In this document: piece by piece, positions 12,263-22,785 of the stretch
Layout: each line of letters starts with the position of its first letter
How positions within the stretch are numbered: the stretch's first letter is position 1
DNA from: a virus
Virus record (IMG/VR): IMGVR_UViG_3300025138_000394
Coordinates: 1-22,785 of that record
Length of the DNA: 22,785 bases
Reading direction: 5' to 3' (one strand)
The notes under the pieces: generated by a model
The model's database searches: none
What the model saw: the letters and a program-made list of their open reading frames with translations, nothing else
What the model was told of the DNA's origin: nothing
Program-made: the position numbers and the translations under genes

Positions 12263-12266
12263 ATTA

Positions 12267-12490
12267 TTAAACGCAGTAGGGGTAGATTCTTAAACGCAGT
12301 GGCCCCGAAATCATTAAACGCAGTAGGCCCAGGAACTCGCACCTGGATTCTTAAACGCAGTAGGTCCAGGAACCAGGATCCAGGCTCTTAAACGCAGTAG
12401 GTCCAGGAACCAGGATCCAGGCTCTTAAACGCAGTAGGTCCAGGAACCAGGATCCAGGCTCTTAAACGCAGTACCCCCTTAAACGCAGTA
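12267..12490 (+). repeat. Eight-copy array of TTAAACGCAGTA, partly with 37-bp period
   Basis: Copies start at 12267, 12290, 12314, 12351, 12388, 12425, 12462 and 12479. Seven are exact; the one at 12290 ends in G. Spacings are 23, 24, 37, 37, 37, 37 and 17 bp. In the 37-bp units the filler (GGTCCAGGAACC... GGATCCAGGCTC) is itself repeated, so two or more whole units are identical. The copy at 12314 is followed by a small hairpin (CCAGG...CCTGG). There is no CRISPR-like pattern, because the fillers are the same. Iterons for a DNA-binding protein, a packaging or replication site, or a recombination boundary are possible. Confidence 0.92.
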
Positions 12491-12671
12491 CCCCCCGCAA
12501 ATCCACTATTTAGATTCATTATTGATAAGGGTTTAGGTTTGGATATATTCAAAATCTTTCGTAAATACCGCGCGCCCGTTCCTATTATATATAGTTTAGA
12601 ATTCATTTTGTAAAGATCCCCCACCCACAATTAAAAAAAAAGTAGGGGGGGTACTTGATTTTTATTTTTAT
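12491..12671 (+). other. Non-coding spacer between repeat array and cassette promoter
   Basis: No credible gene is seen. The stretch holds a GC-rich patch (CCGCGCGCCCG near 12570), an A/T-rich patch, and an imperfect inverted arrangement of C-rich (CCCCCACCC near 12620) and G-rich (G7 near 12644-12650) tracts around a run of nine A. Any hairpin formed by these tracts lacks a clean T run. Confidence 0.6.
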
Positions 12672-12704
12672 TTGTTTTATGTGTTCATAAAATGTTTATA
12701 TTTG
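12672..12704 (+). promoter_or_regulatory. Consensus Bacteroidota promoter of the cassette
   Basis: TATATTTG at 12697-12704 is an exact TAnnTTTG -7 element, with TTG at 12672-12674 and a 22-base spacer. It is closer to the host consensus than the TTGC-type sites of the phage early block, and lies 24 bases before the first start codon of the cassette. Confidence 0.65.
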
Positions 12705-12711
12705 TATAAAC
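12694..12711 (+). promoter_or_regulatory. Palindrome over the -7 element (operator-like)
   Basis: GTTTATA (12694-12700), TTTG, TATAAAC (12705-12711) is a perfect 7-bp inverted repeat centred on the -7 element. A wider pair, AAATGTTT and AAACATTT, lies around it. A repressor bound here would block transcription of the cassette. Confidence 0.55.
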
Positions 12712-12728
12712 TTTAAAACATTTACACA

Positions 12729-12812
12729 ATGAAACTATTTATTAACCTTTATCTATTTGCTTTCGGTTTTTATATCGTCGGGCATTTTATCAATTATTTT
12801 ATTAACCTTTAA
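12729..12812 (+). CDS. Tiny membrane peptide or leader, 27 aa
   Basis: MKLFINLYLFAFGFYIVGHF followed by INYFINL is a single hydrophobic, Phe/Tyr-rich segment. It is the first frame after the cassette promoter and has the same A-rich ACACA/ACAAA leader before ATG as the genes after it, which supports translation. It could be a membrane peptide or a leader influencing the next gene. No family is recognised. Confidence 0.45.
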   Translation: MKLFINLYLFAFGFYIVGHFINYFINL

Positions 12813-12822
12813 TTATTACAAA

Positions 12823-13173
12823 ATGGAAACTTTAAACTATTACGAATTACTAGAAAAGACAAAAGGCGGAAAAATCTTTTCCCTTACTTATTCGCGCGCT
12901 GACAAATCATTGGGCGCGGGAAAATTTAGATTTGGCGTTAAATCTTATTTAAAAGGTGGATCTTTAAAATATGATCCGATCAAGGCTAAAAATTTGGTTT
13001 TGTTTAATATGTCAAAAAAACAATATCGCACCATCAAATTTGAGCGGATTATATCCGCAAAAATTGACGGGGTAGAATATAAATTTTTCAATGATACATT
13101 TGCAAACTCAATGGAGCGTATCGACAAAGCAATTAAAAACATTAATAAATTAAATAAAATAATTAACAGATGA
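12823..13173 (+). CDS. SH3-like beta-barrel protein (DUF2693-like)
   Basis: The 116-residue product starts METLNYYELLEKTKGGKIFS and contains KIFSLTYSRADKSLGAGKFR, GVKSYLKGG, KNLVLFNMSKKQYRTIKFER and IISAKIDGVEY. The series kIFsvty...GkxRxxxxxGVkxxxkGG...Lvxxxdxxkxxyrtixxdriisxk is what I know from the Bacteroidota SH3 beta-barrel fold family near DUF2693. Its role is unknown. The frame extends upstream to 12757 but overlaps the tiny peptide; the ATG at 12823 with the ACAAA leader is chosen. Its codons include CGC, CGG and CGT for Arg, unlike most of the window. Confidence 0.75.
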   Translation: METLNYYELLEKTKGGKIFSLTYSRADKSLGAGKFRFGVKSYLKGGSLKYDPIKAKNLVLFNMSKKQYRTIKFERIISAKIDGVEYKFFNDTFANSMERIDKAIKNINKLNKIINR

Positions 13174-13391
13174 AAACACAAAAAAAATTTTATTGGAGTC
13201 CGCAAACTATAGATTTTTTTCAGCTATTAAAAAATAGTGAAGGAAATGAAAAAATGAAAGAAAGTATATCAATTTTTATTCATAATGAATGCGATTTAGA
13301 AGACAATGAAACATTTGAAGACTTGATAGATGATTTGATTTTTCAAGTTGAAAACACAACTTTAGAAGAAATAGAAAATTTAAAAAAATAA
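13170..13391 (+). CDS. Hypothetical acidic protein, 73 aa
   Basis: The ATG overlaps the stop of the SH3-like gene (ATGA). The product starts MKTQKKFYWSPQTIDFFQLL and is strongly acidic in its second half (CDLEDNETFEDLIDDLIFQV, TTLEEIENL). It is likely helical. No family is recognised. It is translationally coupled to its neighbour and belongs to the cassette operon. Confidence 0.6.
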   Translation: MKTQKKFYWSPQTIDFFQLLKNSEGNEKMKESISIFIHNECDLEDNETFEDLIDDLIFQVENTTLEEIENLKK

Positions 13392-13395
13392 TAAT

Positions 13396-13533
13396 ATGAG
13401 TAATGAAATGTTAATAAAAATTTACGATGAATTAATAGTTTTATATGATTTTTATAATGATTTAAATGATGAAGATGGATTAAGAAATGTAAATCATATT
13501 TTAAATGAATTAAATAAAAATATAAAAGAATAA
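13396..13533 (+). CDS. Small hypothetical protein, 45 aa
   Basis: MSNEMLIKIYDELIVLYDFY continues NDLNDEDGLRNVNHILNELN and ends KNIKE. It is a short acidic helical protein, very AT-rich. It lies four bases after the gene before and five before the next, in the same operon. Even spacing and the A-rich start region support it; no family is recognised. Confidence 0.5.
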   Translation: MSNEMLIKIYDELIVLYDFYNDLNDEDGLRNVNHILNELNKNIKE

Positions 13534-13538
13534 ACAAA

Positions 13539-13763
13539 ATGAAAACTAGAAAACAAAACGAAACATTTTTTGGTGATGGGTATATTTTAGAATATACTTT
13601 AATTCAAACCAAATGGGCGGGTGATAATGATACCCCGCCCGCGGAAGATTGGGAAATTGAAAACGTATCAATTCAAAAAGAAAATCACGAACATTTTGAT
13701 TTACCTATTGAATTTGTAGAGCGGTTTAATATTAACGACAAATTAATTAATTATGATTACTAA
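13539..13763 (+). CDS. Hypothetical protein, 74 aa
   Basis: The product starts MKTRKQNETFFGDGYILEYT and is likely beta-rich at first (YILEYTLIQTKWAGDNDTPP) then acidic (HFDLPIEFVERFNINDKLIN). It has the ACAAAATG start context of the cassette. It overlaps the GP88-like gene by 11 bases, so the two are probably made together. No family is recognised. Confidence 0.6.
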   Translation: MKTRKQNETFFGDGYILEYTLIQTKWAGDNDTPPAEDWEIENVSIQKENHEHFDLPIEFVERFNINDKLINYDY

Positions 13764-14517
13764 TTATAAAATACCCGCGCGCCTATTAAGCGCGGGTATA
13801 TCAAACGCGAAGACAAAGAAAAACGAATTAAAAACCTTTATACTTTATTTGGCACCCTATACACAAAACTACAAAGGTGTTAACATATGCCCAAAGGCTT
13901 CAAAAGGATGCGCGGCAGCTTGTTTATTTACAGCGGGGCGGGGTGCGTTTAATAACGTACAAAACGCCCGTATTAATAAAACAAACTTTTACATTGAAAA
14001 CAAAAGTTTATTTATTAAAAAGTTAGCGGGTGAAATAATCAAAGAAACTGCAAAGGCTAAGAAGAAAGGCGAAAAAATTGCCTTTCGTTTAAATGGTACG
14101 TCTGATATTGATTTCATTTACTTACTTGAAAAATACGCGGGTTTAAATATTAAAGACCTAAGCCCGCACGCGGTCTTTTATGATTATACTAAGATCATTG
14201 GCAAAGTAAAAAAGTATCTTAATCATCCTAATTATTATTTAACCTTTTCACGGGCGGAAGATAACGAAACAGAAACAATGCAAGCCCTACAAATGGGCGC
14301 TAATGTTTCCGCGGTCTTTTCCCTGGATCTACCAGGAACCTGGAGCGGGTTCAAGGTTGTGGACGGTGACGTGAGCGATTTAGTAATGCTGACCGCCAAA
14401 AACAGCATCTTAGGTTTACGGGCAAAAGGTAAGGCCCGCAAAGATGACAGCGGATTTACAATTAATAGCAATAAACTAAACACAAAACAAAATGAGCAAA
14501 TCAAAGCAACAGTTTGA
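13753..14517 (+). CDS. GP88/DUF7227-like phage protein with Cys cluster
   Basis: The 254-residue protein shows the hallmarks I know from the Gene product 88 / DUF7227 group: an N-terminal NAKTKKNE followed by LYLAPY, a Cys cluster VNICPKASKGCAAACLFTAG (Cys46, Cys53, Cys57; C-x6-C-x3-C), RGAFNNVQNARINKT, FRLNGTSDIDF (about 111-121), VFYDYTK (about 141-147) and YLTFSRAED (about 162-170). The three Cys could hold zinc or an iron-sulfur cluster; the reaction is unknown. All seven Arg codons are CGN, with none AGA or AGG, against the AGA/AGG preference of the flanking phage genes. It is the largest gene of the cassette. Confidence 0.8.
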   Translation: MITNYKIPARLLSAGISNAKTKKNELKTFILYLAPYTQNYKGVNICPKASKGCAAACLFTAGRGAFNNVQNARINKTNFYIENKSLFIKKLAGEIIKETAKAKKKGEKIAFRLNGTSDIDFIYLLEKYAGLNIKDLSPHAVFYDYTKIIGKVKKYLNHPNYYLTFSRAEDNETETMQALQMGANVSAVFSLDLPGTWSGFKVVDGDVSDLVMLTAKNSILGLRAKGKARKDDSGFTINSNKLNTKQNEQIKATV

Positions 14518-14683
14518 ACACTACAGAAAACAAAGCAAAGAAATAAAAAAGCTTTATCCAATTAGAAAAGCTTTATCTATAATTGAATATGATATAACCG
14601 ACCCCGCGGAATATTACATAACAGATAACAAAACATTCTATAAAAGAATTAAACAAACCGAATTTATAAACCTAACAAAATGA
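14492..14683 (+). CDS. Small hypothetical basic protein, 63 aa
   Basis: The frame starts inside the end of the GP88-like gene (26-base overlap) with the ACAAAATG context shared by the cassette genes, which decides this start. The product begins MSKSKQQFEHYRKQSKEIKK, is Lys/Tyr-rich and contains ITDPAEYYITDNKTFYKRIK. It overlaps the next gene by four bases (ATGA). No family is recognised; the basic start suggests nucleic-acid contact. Confidence 0.55.
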   Translation: MSKSKQQFEHYRKQSKEIKKLYPIRKALSIIEYDITDPAEYYITDNKTFYKRIKQTEFINLTK

Positions 14684-14886
14684 AGATACAAGAAACAATA
14701 CACGAAGAAGTAAACATTTGCGGGCTTATGCTCCCACAAAAAGAAGTTAATAACATATATGTTGACTTTGAAACAAATGACAAACTATATAGATTTGATT
14801 TAAAGCCTACCGACTTTTTAGAATGGTTTGACAATGAAAGTATTAAACAAATAAAAGACTATATAAATAAAAAGTATTGCACTTAA
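14680..14886 (+). CDS. Hypothetical protein, 68 aa, last cassette gene
   Basis: The product starts MKIQETIHEEVNICGLMLPQ and contains YVDFETNDKLYRFDLKPTDF and a basic end (INKKYCT). It is coupled to the gene before by ATGA. A strong terminator follows 25 bases after its stop, closing the operon. No family is recognised. Confidence 0.6.
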   Translation: MKIQETIHEEVNICGLMLPQKEVNNIYVDFETNDKLYRFDLKPTDFLEWFDNESIKQIKDYINKKYCT

Positions 14887-14911
14887 TATAATAATTGAAT
14901 AAATTTATAAC

Positions 14912-14940
14912 AGCCTGATTTTTAATCGGGCTTTTTTTTT
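14912..14940 (+). terminator. Rho-independent terminator of the cassette operon
   Basis: AGCCTGATT (14912-14920) pairs with AATCGGGCT (14924-14932) around TTT, with one G-T pair, and ends in nine T (14932-14940). It is the strongest terminator in the window and shows that the cassette is transcribed as one closed unit. Confidence 0.9.
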
Positions 14941-14986
14941 GGGTATACTCGCGCCTTAAAACGAATCAACCAAACCGAAAACCTTA

Positions 14987-15040
14987 TTAAACATAGGCCC
15001 AGGAGCCCCTCAGAGGGCTTCTAAGGGCCTTAAACATAGG
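14987..15040 (+). repeat. TTAAACATAGG direct repeats flanking a hairpin
   Basis: TTAAACATAGG occurs at 14987-14997 and 15030-15040. Between them AGGCCC (14995-15000) pairs with GGGCCT (15025-15030), and GAGCCC pairs with GGGCTTC with one bulge around a short loop. The first copy runs on as GGCCCAGGAGCCCC, close to the array copy at 12314 (GGCCCAGGAACTCG). So the right side of the cassette carries a diverged relative of the left-side repeats. Confidence 0.75.
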
Positions 15041-15088
15041 AGCTGGACCTTACCCCCGCCCGGATATTTGCGGCCCGCTAAGGAAAGG

Positions 15089-15186
15089 AACGTAAAACGG
15101 GCCAAATCCGTTATAGTATATTGACTTTTATAAAATCAACGTAAAACGGGCCCGAATGGATATAGTATATCCGGTTTAATAAAATC
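15089..15186 (+). repeat. 49-bp tandem repeat with palindrome
   Basis: AACGTAAAACGGGCC occurs at 15089-15103 and 15138-15152, and the following sequence also repeats (TATAGTATAT, then TTnATAAAATCAA), giving two 49-bp units. The second contains the perfect inverted repeat GGATATA-G-TATATCC (15158-15172); the first has a degenerate form. Two matching sites 49 bp apart upstream of the tail operon look like paired operator or activator sites. Confidence 0.75.
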
Positions 15187-15403
15187 AAGCGGTTTAGAAA
15201 ACTGTGTCAAGAGAAGTAAACCTTAAGATAAAAACATAGTTAACCCAAAGCCTCTATATTAATTCTCAGTATAAATATTGAATTGTCATTGTTGTTCGTT
15301 TAATCTCTCACAATTCCAATTATATATTAATATAACCATTTTTTTCACCTTTTGTTTTATTTTTACTTATGGTACAATTAACCTGCATATTGGTTATATT
15401 AGT

Positions 15404-16108
15404 ATGAAGCAATTTAAGATAGACATCCCCAAGTCGCTACGAGGGATTCCTCTAAAGGAATACCAAAGGTTTTTTAAAGTATCAGAAGATAATAAAGAAG
15501 CCAAAGATCCAGAATTCTTAAACCTTAAGATGTTAGAGATCTTTTGCGGCTTAAGCTTAAAGGAGGCTTATAATATGAAATTGACTGATTTTAGCTTTAT
15601 AATTAATCACCTTAATGAGTTATTTAAGCAAGAGACACCTATGATTAATAAGTTCTCCTTAAAGGACCCAAAAGGGGATGAGGTAGAGTTTGGTTTTATA
15701 CCTAGGCTTGATGATATATCCCTAGGAGAGTTTGTTGACTTAGACACCTATGTTTCAGACTGGAGTGATATGCACAAAGCTATGGCAGTATTATATAGGC
15801 CAATAACCTTTGATAAGAGGGGTATGTATCTTATAGAGGATTATGAAAGCTCAGATAAATACTCAGAGGTAATGAAAGATATGCCTATTGATATAGCAAT
15901 CGGAGCTGTTGTTTTTTTTTATCGTTTAGGGAAAGAACTGTCAATTTATTTAACGGGTTATTTGAAGGAGCAGATGAAGAAGGAGGACTCGGAGCTGAGG
16001 CAAGCTTTGGACGAAAATGGGGTTGGTATCAATCAATTTATGCAATCGCTAAAGGAGACCTCCTCAAATTTGAAGAAGTTGCACAACTCAAGGTTACACA
16101 AGCCTTAA
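15404..16108 (+). CDS. Tail assembly chaperone, unshifted product (G-like)
   Basis: The 234-residue product starts MKQFKIDIPKSLRGIPLKEY with a helical body (FLNLKMLEIFCGLSLKEAYN), a beta-rich part (NKFSLKDPKGDEVEFGFIPR) and a helical region ending in FFYRLGKELSIYLTGYLKEQ. This build, and its place just upstream of tail completion and tape-measure genes, fits the tail assembly chaperones of Bacteroidota phages, which coat the tape measure during tail building, as lambda G does. The frame is open from 15278, but ATG 15404 fits the family start. A T9 run at 15912-15920 allows a -1 shift into a second conserved domain. Confidence 0.75.
   Translation: MKQFKIDIPKSLRGIPLKEYQRFFKVSEDNKEAKDPEFLNLKMLEIFCGLSLKEAYNMKLTDFSFIINHLNELFKQETPMINKFSLKDPKGDEVEFGFIPRLDDISLGEFVDLDTYVSDWSDMHKAMAVLYRPITFDKRGMYLIEDYESSDKYSEVMKDMPIDIAIGAVVFFYRLGKELSIYLTGYLKEQMKKEDSELRQALDENGVGINQFMQSLKETSSNLKKLHNSRLHKP
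15913..15919 (+). promoter_or_regulatory. Putative -1 frameshift slippery heptamer (T TTT TTT)
   Basis: The chaperone frame reads GTT GTT TTT TTT TAT here, so 15913-15919 is a perfect X XXY YYZ heptamer of seven T within a run of nine T. The -1 frame becomes open only at 15892 (a TGA lies at 15889-15891) and stays open to 16173, so the site is placed just where a shift would work. Slippage by RNA polymerase on T9 is an alternative mechanism. Confidence 0.7.
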
Positions 16109-16173
16109 CCTGGTTAGAGTTTGAGAAAGAGAAGAATCAATTAGAGGCTGCTGCTATTAAAAACATAAAATGA
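15919..16173 (+). CDS. Frameshift domain of tail assembly chaperone (T-like)
   Basis: In the -1 frame after the T run there are 84 open codons with no start codon of their own at the front, ending at a TGA that overlaps the next gene's ATG. The second half (GRKWGWYQSIYAIAKGDLLK, then FEEVAQLKVTQALTWLEFEK and an EKNQLEAA tail) is the kind of C-terminal domain seen in tail chaperone fusions. A -1 shift would give a 256-residue G-T fusion (172 + 84). This arrangement parallels lambda gpG/gpGT. Real protein products have not been shown here. Confidence 0.75.
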   Translation, partial: LSFRERTVNLFNGLFEGADEEGGLGAEASFGRKWGWYQSIYAIAKGDLLKFEEVAQLKVTQALTWLEFEKEKNQLEAAAIKNIK

Positions 16174-16637
16174 AAGAAATATACGATTTATTAGATAAGA
16201 TTAAAGATAGGCTTAGAGCTAACAATATAACTAATACTGTCACCTTTGGTGATATAATGGAAGTAGATTTAACTAAGACTACTATATTCCCTTTGTCTCA
16301 TATTATGTTGGGTAATGTTAACTTTAGTGAGAACATAATGACTGCTGAAATTAGTGTTTTATCTATGGATATTATAGACAAGAACAAAACCCAAAGTACG
16401 TTTGATTCTTTTTATGGTAATGACAATTTACAAGATGTATTTAATACTCAATTAGCCGTAATAAACGACTTACAAAGCCATCTAAGGAGGTCTGATCTAT
16501 TCGATACAGCTAACTTTAGAGTGGCTGGAGATCCGCTTGCAGAACCGTTCCAAGATCGTTTTGAGAATGAATTAGCTGGATGGACCGCAACCTTTGCTAT
16601 AGAACTAAGTAATAATAACTTTAATATTTGTGAATAG
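16170..16637 (+). CDS. Tail completion/connector-type protein, 155 aa
   Basis: The product starts MKEIYDLLDKIKDRLRANNI, followed by a beta-rich body (FGDIMEVDLTKTTIFPLSHI, ENIMTAEISVLSMDIIDKNK), a helical middle and a final beta segment (LAGWTATFAIELSNNNFNIC). The N-terminal helix plus mixed beta core, and the position between chaperone and gp10-like protein, suit a tail terminator or connector protein. Its start overlaps the chaperone frameshift stop by four bases. Family assignment is by context and pattern only. Confidence 0.6.
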   Translation: MKEIYDLLDKIKDRLRANNITNTVTFGDIMEVDLTKTTIFPLSHIMLGNVNFSENIMTAEISVLSMDIIDKNKTQSTFDSFYGNDNLQDVFNTQLAVINDLQSHLRRSDLFDTANFRVAGDPLAEPFQDRFENELAGWTATFAIELSNNNFNICE

Positions 16638-21128: not shown

Positions 21129-21278
21129 ATGATAAAGCAAGTTATAGAGGGGTTGAAACTTATGGACTATTATGATGCAAACGAATTAATTCAATTTGCA
21201 AAGGGAAGTCATAAAGCTCCACAAACATTTAAAGAAATGAGAGAAACAGTTAAACGTAGAAAATATGGCAGACAATAG
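21129..21278 (+). CDS. Small hypothetical protein, 49 aa
   Basis: The frame starts MIKQVIEGLKLMDYYDANEL and ends in a basic helix (MRETVKRRKYGRQ). It lies four bases after the large tail gene and its last 14 bases overlap the tape-measure start in another frame. Sized and placed like small tail accessory genes; no family is recognised. Confidence 0.5.
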   Translation: MIKQVIEGLKLMDYYDANELIQFAKGSHKAPQTFKEMRETVKRRKYGRQ

Positions 21279-22785
21279 GATACAGTTTACTTTTCAGATA
21301 AATGATGCAGGTAAAGCCAAAGTCAAAGGATTAACCCAAGACTTTGTAAGCTTAGATACTGCTATTAATAAAGTCAACGTTGATTTGAAAAGGCAGGCTG
21401 CTGAGATGAACAACACTGGCAAATCTACAAATAATATGGTAGATAAGACTGGTCTTGCTGGAGCAACACTTGTTGAACTTAGTAGGACTATATCTGACTC
21501 TAACTATGGATTCACAGCGATGGCTAACAACATTAGTCAATTATCAACTCTATTTATTACTCTTATAGCCACAACAGGTGGTTTAGGGAATGGGTTAAGA
21601 GAGCTAAAGAAAGCCTTTATGGGCCCTTTAGGACTTATTGTAATATTTAATATTGCTGTAGCCGCTTTTGAACGTTTAGCAATGAAAGCTAAATCCACAA
21701 AAAAAGAATTAGATAATTTGAAAGGAGGTCTTGGAAGTGTATCTGGAGATTTAGAGACTTTTATCAAACTAATTGATAGAGGGAACCTAAGTAGTAGAGA
21801 CCTTGATGAATCATTAATAGCATTAAAAAAAACATATCCAGAGCTTAATATAGAAATAGGTGAAAATGGCAGGCTAACAAAGGAGTCTAGAATACAAATA
21901 GAAGAAAAAATAAAAAAAGTAAGAGAGCTAGCTAAAGCTCAAGCTATCCAGAAGGAGTTACAGAAGACATTTTCAGATCGAGTGAAATTAGAATTAAAGC
22001 AAGAAGAGGACATCGCAGAGTTAAGAAAGGAAGTTGCAGAAGGTAGAAAAAAAGAATTTAGGGATTTATTATATGAAACCAAAACCGGGTTAGGTGTATA
22101 TACAGATTCCCTTAAAGAAAGAATCCAAGCAGTTAAAGATGCAAATGAAGAAGAATTTGATCTGTTTGACAGAAGAGAAACAAGCCTTCTTAAGAAATTA
22201 GAAGATACAAACGGTTCTATTGCTGGAGCTTTTGGAGGGAAAGATGACCCTTTTGTTCTTGCTAATGAAATAAGAGCAAAATCATTTAAAGATCTTGGTG
22301 AAGAAATAGAAATAACAACGGAAAAAATAAAGCGGAGTGATATTAGAAGAGTGAGAAGTTCAAAAGAATCTGCTGTTAATATTTTGGCCGCTTCAGCAGA
22401 ACTAACAAGTGGATTATCTGAACTTTTTGGACAACAAACAGAAGCTGGTAAGGCTTTTGCTGTAATGACAGCGACATTCGATACTTATGTTGCAGCAAAC
22501 AGAACATTGTCTGATCCATATTTTATAGGGAGACCTTATGAAAGATTTATAGCTACAGCCGCGATTATTGTAACAGGTCTTGCTAATGTTAAAAATATTT
22601 TAACGGCAGATAAAAACGGCCCTAGAGGTTCCTCAACAAGTGCAGCAGGAGTAGGATCATCTCAAGCCCCAATATTTAACGTAGTAGGGAACTCGGGAAT
22701 AGATCAATTAGGTCAAGCTATAAGGGGTACAAGAAATCAACAAACAATTGCAATAGTATCAGATAGAGAAATACTAGAAGCTCAA
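21265..22785 (+). CDS. Tail tape-measure protein (3' end outside window)
   Basis: The frame starts MADNRIQFTFQINDAGKAKV and is open to the window edge, 507 codons. It has an N-terminal domain, hydrophobic segments (STLFITLIATTGGLGNGLRE; GPLGLIVIFNIAVAAFERLA), a long charged coiled coil (about 190-310) and a C-terminal part with TAAIIVTGLANVKNIL and NVVGNSGIDQLGQAIRGTRN. This is the tape-measure layout: helical rods and membrane segments with a typical GLANVxxI and NVVGxS end. The C-terminal motifs suggest the gene ends soon after the edge, so the protein is short for a tape measure. Confidence 0.8.
   Translation, partial: MADNRIQFTFQINDAGKAKVKGLTQDFVSLDTAINKVNVDLKRQAAEMNNTGKSTNNMVDKTGLAGATLVELSRTISDSNYGFTAMANNISQLSTLFITLIATTGGLGNGLRELKKAFMGPLGLIVIFNIAVAAFERLAMKAKSTKKELDNLKGGLGSVSGDLETFIKLIDRGNLSSRDLDESLIALKKTYPELNIEIGENGRLTKESRIQIEEKIKKVRELAKAQAIQKELQKTFSDRVKLELKQEEDIAELRKEVAEGRKKEFRDLLYETKTGLGVYTDSLKERIQAVKDANEEEFDLFDRRETSLLKKLEDTNGSIAGAFGGKDDPFVLANEIRAKSFKDLGEEIEITTEKIKRSDIRRVRSSKESAVNILAASAELTSGLSELFGQQTEAGKAFAVMTATFDTYVAANRTLSDPYFIGRPYERFIATAAIIVTGLANVKNILTADKNGPRGSSTSAAGVGSSQAPIFNVVGNSGIDQLGQAIRGTRNQQTIAIVSDREILEAQ

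Follow-up and report, generated by a model that had tools for sequence, protein, structure and literature searches.

How does a gene whose two coding parts lie in different reading frames on either side of a run of nine thymidines give rise to its products, and is it the ribosome or the RNA polymerase that changes the frame? This question is raised by a locus in a virus record from IMG/VR, whose full 22,785 bases are referred to as the window. The T9 tract (15912–15920) is located inside a 0-frame ORF on the plus strand, which starts with an ATG at 15404, comprises 234 codons and ends with its stop codon at 16108. The 0-frame codons across 15908–15922 read GTT GTT TTT TTT TAT, and the tract harbors the in-phase ribosomal heptamer T TTT TTT at 15913–15919. 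The −1 frame is open between stops from 15892 onwards, with its last sense nucleotide at 16170 and a TGA stop codon at 16171–16173. A −1 transition after F172 joins the N-domain of 172 amino acids (15404–15919), which is common to the short and the long product, to an 84 amino acid C-domain (15919–16170) with the pattern GxKWGWYQSIYAIAxGD...LTWLxFEKEKN. The resulting protein of 256 amino acids compares with 234 amino acids for the unshifted form, in which a TAC-like domain with homologues in other phages is followed by a 62-codon 0-frame tail. The run, its codon phasing, the heptamer, the opening of the −1 frame at 15892 and both product sizes were found as described in the original prediction, which had proposed a programmed −1 frameshift in a tail assembly chaperone (TAC) gene. 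Insertion of one U into the mRNA would yield an identical 256 amino acid protein. Hence, join-spanning peptides alone would not discriminate between a ribosomal shift and a U insertion. The −1 stop codon overlaps the ATG of the following gene (ATGA, 16170–16173), which fits a translated −1 frame. This gene (16170–16637, plus strand) encodes a 155 amino acid protein of unknown function belonging to phrog_30964.

Searches with both halves of the gene retrieved hundreds of viral contigs and two cultured phages, and the loci were scanned with profiles of both domains. The C-domain was in the −1 frame in 492 of 492 loci holding both domains, and in none of them were the domains fused. A T count that would fuse the two frames was likewise looked for and occurred in 0 relatives. 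As some contigs had been fetched more than once, distinct tract contexts were counted separately (n = 345). T9 was present in 315 of these, including locus L442, T10 in 29 and T12 in one, while T7 or T8 occurred in none of the 345, even though seven Ts would suffice for a ribosomal heptamer. All T10 and T12 variants kept the −1 relation. The N-domains of the sample fall into 113 or more lineages with less than 72% identity, and the sample extends to the Nonlabens phage P12024L at approx. 25% identity. On a tree with 339 tips and 75.9 substitutions per site in all, 14 changes of the tract state were inferred, none of them to a length below nine. In a clade of three loci (L336, L388 and L396) the 3′ T of the core was lost and an extra 5′ T was present, so that the run still comprised nine Ts. 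Being a single event, this compensation is only suggestive.

The only cultured homologues found were those of the Nonlabens phages P12024L and P12024S, and a nucleotide search in distant mode gave no match to cultured phages. Bacterial genomes contained almost no copies (2 loci), and prophages were therefore not useful for the comparison. The tract is carried by many marine phages, most of them uncultured, which form a large group with kinship to a cultured phage that infects a marine member of the Bacteroidota. ORFs 40/41 of P12024L and ORFs 38/39 of P12024S share the T9 tract and the −1 frame with the window gene at 25–30% identity. In contrast to the arrangement proposed here, they are annotated as two hypothetical proteins, and they differ from the window gene in a 0-frame tail of only approx. 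25 codons and in their position. In both phages (P12024L: L111 9353–11255) the gene directly follows the gene of the terminase large subunit without a portal or capsid gene in between; the order of the structural genes in P12024L and P12024S is thus unusual. In the window, approx. 3 kb with Gp88 and small ORFs (12263–15403) separate the terminase from the tract gene.

Homopolymers are generally error-prone, which would speak for a sequencing error, a pseudogene or a T run that undergoes phase variation through slippage during replication. However, the same frame relation recurred in all 492 loci from many assemblies without a single fused case, the T10 and T12 variants retained it, and both cultured relatives carry T9. 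This explanation is accordingly extremely improbable, and the T9 arrangement is neither chance nor a sequencing error.

To follow the reading frame under selection, we compared the positions of substitutions in close pairs. Upstream of the tract, 61–71% of the substitutions were at the third 0-frame position. Beyond approx. 90 nt downstream, 47–69% were at the second position of the 0-frame codons, corresponding to the third position in the −1 frame, and the mixed zone in between was constrained in both frames. This switch in the phase of constraint demonstrates that the −1 frame is translated as a continuation. The two-ORF annotation of P12024L and P12024S would agree with a separate protein that has its own start codon in the −1 frame. 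In the window, however, no ATG-, GTG- or TTG-started ORF of at least 60 amino acids was listed in this frame, as originally predicted, and the relatives display no conserved start. An ATG, GTG or TTG before the conserved WGW was absent in 192 of 308 relatives, and ATG was found in only 16. A separate start would also fail to explain the invariant tract and is very unlikely. The constraint switch, the missing start codons and the conserved frame relation together exclude, or make very unlikely, both a separate start and an error, pseudogene or phase variation. Judged from the sequences, the frame transition is almost certainly programmed, and comparison of the relatives shows that it is ancient and coupled to a T run never shorter than nine. 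In this respect the original prediction was borne out, since frame, tract and −1-frame peptide are conserved in hundreds of relatives.

The gene probably encodes a TAC that is extended in a G/GT-like manner. This assignment is based on the matches to phrog_166 and to the HK97 fold, on the frameshift itself and on neighbors taken to be tail genes. The family phrog_166 ('tail protein') matched 17 of 76 relatives over residues approx. 10–78 with a best E-value of 1.2e-4, and it also matches P2 gpE. The AlphaFold2 model of the N-domain was confident (mean pLDDT 94.7). A Foldseek search with this model against the PDB gave no significant match. When the Foldseek list was re-aligned, the HK97 TAC (2ob9) ranked second by Z (3.7 over 69 residues, rmsd 3.7), a Z value that is below the level for a safe fold claim. 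Matches of helical structures to the long helix in the 0-frame tail were meaningless and were discarded. Direct alignment to HK97 gp13 and P2 gpE with hhalign, searches of the N- and C-domains for named Pfam and NCBIfam families and a profile search of PDB sequences revealed nothing relevant. Six ORFs, spanning about 5 kb, separate the tract gene from a tape-measure-like ORF (21265–22785, plus strand), which is cut by the window end, matches only the unnamed family phrog_30292 and was classified by its sequence character. Among the neighbors, none of which belongs to a named family, no profile library identified a major tail protein or a tape measure gene, by which the usual TAC position beside the tape measure could have been recognized. 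The TAC function claimed in the original prediction thus stands as probable, with weak homology complemented by a location among presumed tail genes.

Which machinery changes the frame at the tract? Two features speak rather for the insertion of a U by RNA polymerase, namely the strict minimum of nine Ts and a T that is never replaced at a doubly silent site. In 331 of 331 sequences, the second Phe codon of the tract had a T as its third base. A T to C exchange at this position is silent in the 0 frame (Phe) as well as in the −1 frame (Leu; TTA or TTG in 308 of 312 T9 sequences). Control columns of conserved Phe in the same gene contained TTC in 18–38%, with at least 38–65 state changes each on the same tree. 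In E. coli, U_UUU_UUC and U_UUU_UUU fall into the same efficient class of ribosomal motifs, and a heptamer without a stimulator yields no more than approx. ten times the background of 0.055% (PMC4066793). Slippage of E. coli RNA polymerase is favored on poly(T) (PMC6260861), and many bacterial genomes show selection against slippage from an A/T run length of nine (PMC1088944). In 345 of 345 contexts, the transition site has the kind of conserved A/T run, roughly nine or longer, that is expected for transcriptional slippage. Polymerase slippage as the main route is about an even proposition or marginally better.

The unvarying −1 direction and the precedent of all characterized TACs lean the other way, towards ribosomal −1 frameshifting; to our knowledge, the other characterized TACs are ribosomal. 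Programmed ribosomal frameshifting alone would occur at T TTT TTT, similar to lambda G/GT and P2 E/E+E′, with the extra two Ts being kept by amino acid constraint and a fine-tuned G:GT ratio. An in-phase X XXY YYZ heptamer was indeed present in every relative. Any T9 run includes T TTT TTT in phase, so that all members could use ribosomal slippage. The −1 direction in 492 of 492 loci counts against polymerase slippage. According to Antonov et al., direction is conserved under ribosomal frameshifting and often not under transcriptional realignment; both directions were seen in slippage families of IS elements, and freedom of direction is not obligatory (PMC3711429). Furthermore, P2-like TACs use T runs ribosomally (PMC3931495), and neighboring bases modulate ribosomal slippage (PMC4066793). 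The outer two Ts of the tract are also constrained by the encoded amino acids, which are V, L, I or F before and Leu or Phe in the −1 frame after the core. The ratio-sensitive role of a chaperone could itself freeze the motif. Three observations argue against ribosomes as the only players: the lack of T7 and T8, the lack of TTC in the second Phe codon of 331 sequences, although it is silent in both frames and allowed by the motif rules, and the failure to find a stimulator. No RNA fold was detected downstream or upstream of the tract (mean z −0.23 to 0.03; downstream −0.23), and a Shine-Dalgarno-like sequence was present in only 45 of 343 relatives. Such a 3′ structure or upstream Shine-Dalgarno sequence is common in −1 programmed ribosomal frameshifting and not obligatory. 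We regard ribosomal frameshifting on its own as a credible reading that falls somewhat short of an even chance. Alternatively, ribosome and polymerase might both act at the same tract, and the sum of both events would set the ratio. The tract satisfies both sets of rules, and some IS clusters are suspected to combine the two processes in a similar way (PMC4066793); we consider such a joint action conceivable but rather unlikely. It overlaps with polymerase slippage as the main route and with purely ribosomal frameshifting, and the likelihoods of the three are not exclusive. The original prediction had mentioned that a pure T run could also allow polymerase slippage, and the comparative data make the polymerase at least as likely as the ribosome.

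Homopolymer runs elsewhere were counted in 609 flanking genes from 201 related loci and compared with synonymous shuffles. T9 was observed once compared to 6.9 expected cases, T8 twice compared to 13.2, and T10 or longer 0 times compared to about 2. A9 occurred 5 times instead of 26, and A10 or longer 0 times instead of about 19. The number of T7 runs was also reduced (18 versus 58 expected), an avoidance that is predicted by ribosomal and transcriptional mechanisms alike. As long runs are avoided elsewhere, the conserved tract stands out. Avoidance of long A/T runs suggests that homopolymer slippage is costly in the hosts of these phages. In the third frame, a TAG stop codon is located just 3′ of the window tract (15927–15929), and nearly all relatives have such a stop 6–9 nt after the run (at a distance of no more than 9 nt in 340 of 344, compared to 47% at control positions). 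Polymerase slippage would give access to this frame as well, and its early closure counts in favor of the polymerase. A U8 mRNA of the tract gene would end at 174 amino acids. The third-frame stop may limit the products of U8 and U11 mRNAs, or may simply follow from the overlapping codons.

Taken together, a two-product TAC gene with polymerase slippage as leading mechanism is the overall explanation that we slightly favor. The gene would produce a 234 amino acid short form and a minor 256 amino acid form, the latter consisting of residues 1–172 followed by the 84-residue C-domain of the −1 frame. RNA polymerase would slip on the T9 template and add one U, and a fraction of the mRNAs would then carry both frames fused. 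Some ribosomal −1 slippage might occur at the same site. In function, the short form presumably corresponds to lambda G, and the long form to GT.

The proposed gene resembles lambda G/GT (HK97 gp13/14) in the combination of a short protein with a minor, −1 extended form, whose C-domain is encoded in an overlapping frame. The lambda slippery site is GGGAAAG, in contrast to the T9 tract. The N-terminal approx. 75 residues match the fold of the HK97 TAC weakly, whereas similarity to the gp13 sequence is not detectable. Moreover, the N-domain is larger than in the lambda and HK97 proteins and contains a beta insert, the 0-frame tail is long, and the gene does not adjoin the tape-measure-like ORF. 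In phage P2, the FETUD operon contains a −1 transition at a T run in its TAC gene (E/E+E′), and the phrog_166 match is a further common feature. The P2 tract is T6G, and its relatives carry T7G or T7C, with −1 translational frameshifting (PMC3931495). These P2-like tracts are variable and shorter, whereas the tract described here is never below T9. Thermus dnaX (A9), Shigella mxiE and some IS transposases share a conserved A/T run of approx. nine or more, in which an insertion opens an overlapping ORF (PMC1088944). Unlike the present probable tail gene, they are not phage tail genes. The tract gene also differs from these genes in its strict −1 direction. A probable fold relative of 191 amino acids (BFVD match R9VW65), which was considered as an outgroup, is encoded by Flavobacterium phage 6H (L337 9500–10927, minus strand). 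It ends with ...RCFFYSTR at a T TTT TTC site, and a TAC-like C-terminal peptide (...TPLWEILIRMYDITKRSLDEEAAYKKLEKK) follows downstream in the −1 frame; a −1 shift at the T TTT TTC site meets a TAG at once.

Frameshifted tail chaperones are a textbook example of ribosomal recoding. It is an evenly balanced proposition that, in this lineage of mostly uncultured phages, slippage of RNA polymerase on an obligatory T9 run takes the place of ribosomal frameshifting in setting the ratio of the TAC forms. If true, no earlier tail chaperone would be known whose decoding takes place during transcription, and the ratio of the assembly proteins would be set at this step. The papers searched contained no report linking transcriptional slippage with tail chaperones. 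What is new is the strictness with which an uncultured lineage keeps nine or more Ts, together with a possible transcriptional recoding that can be tested. Frozen at this length in 113 lineages below 72% identity, the site provides a natural test of ribosomal versus transcriptional recoding. Furthermore, the tract helps to find and correctly annotate the gene, which is now split into 'hypothetical proteins' in this phage group.

Apart from the tract gene, the window contains two Peptidase_M15_3-like ORFs on the plus strand. The first (693–1085) matched with an E-value of 8e-17, while the match of the second (2215–2613) was weak and below the cut-off (E 1.2e-4). The second ORF reads SSHLIGKAAII at a site where the first differs and, by its sequence, looks like a degenerate endolysin paralogue that has lost the zinc-site Asp.
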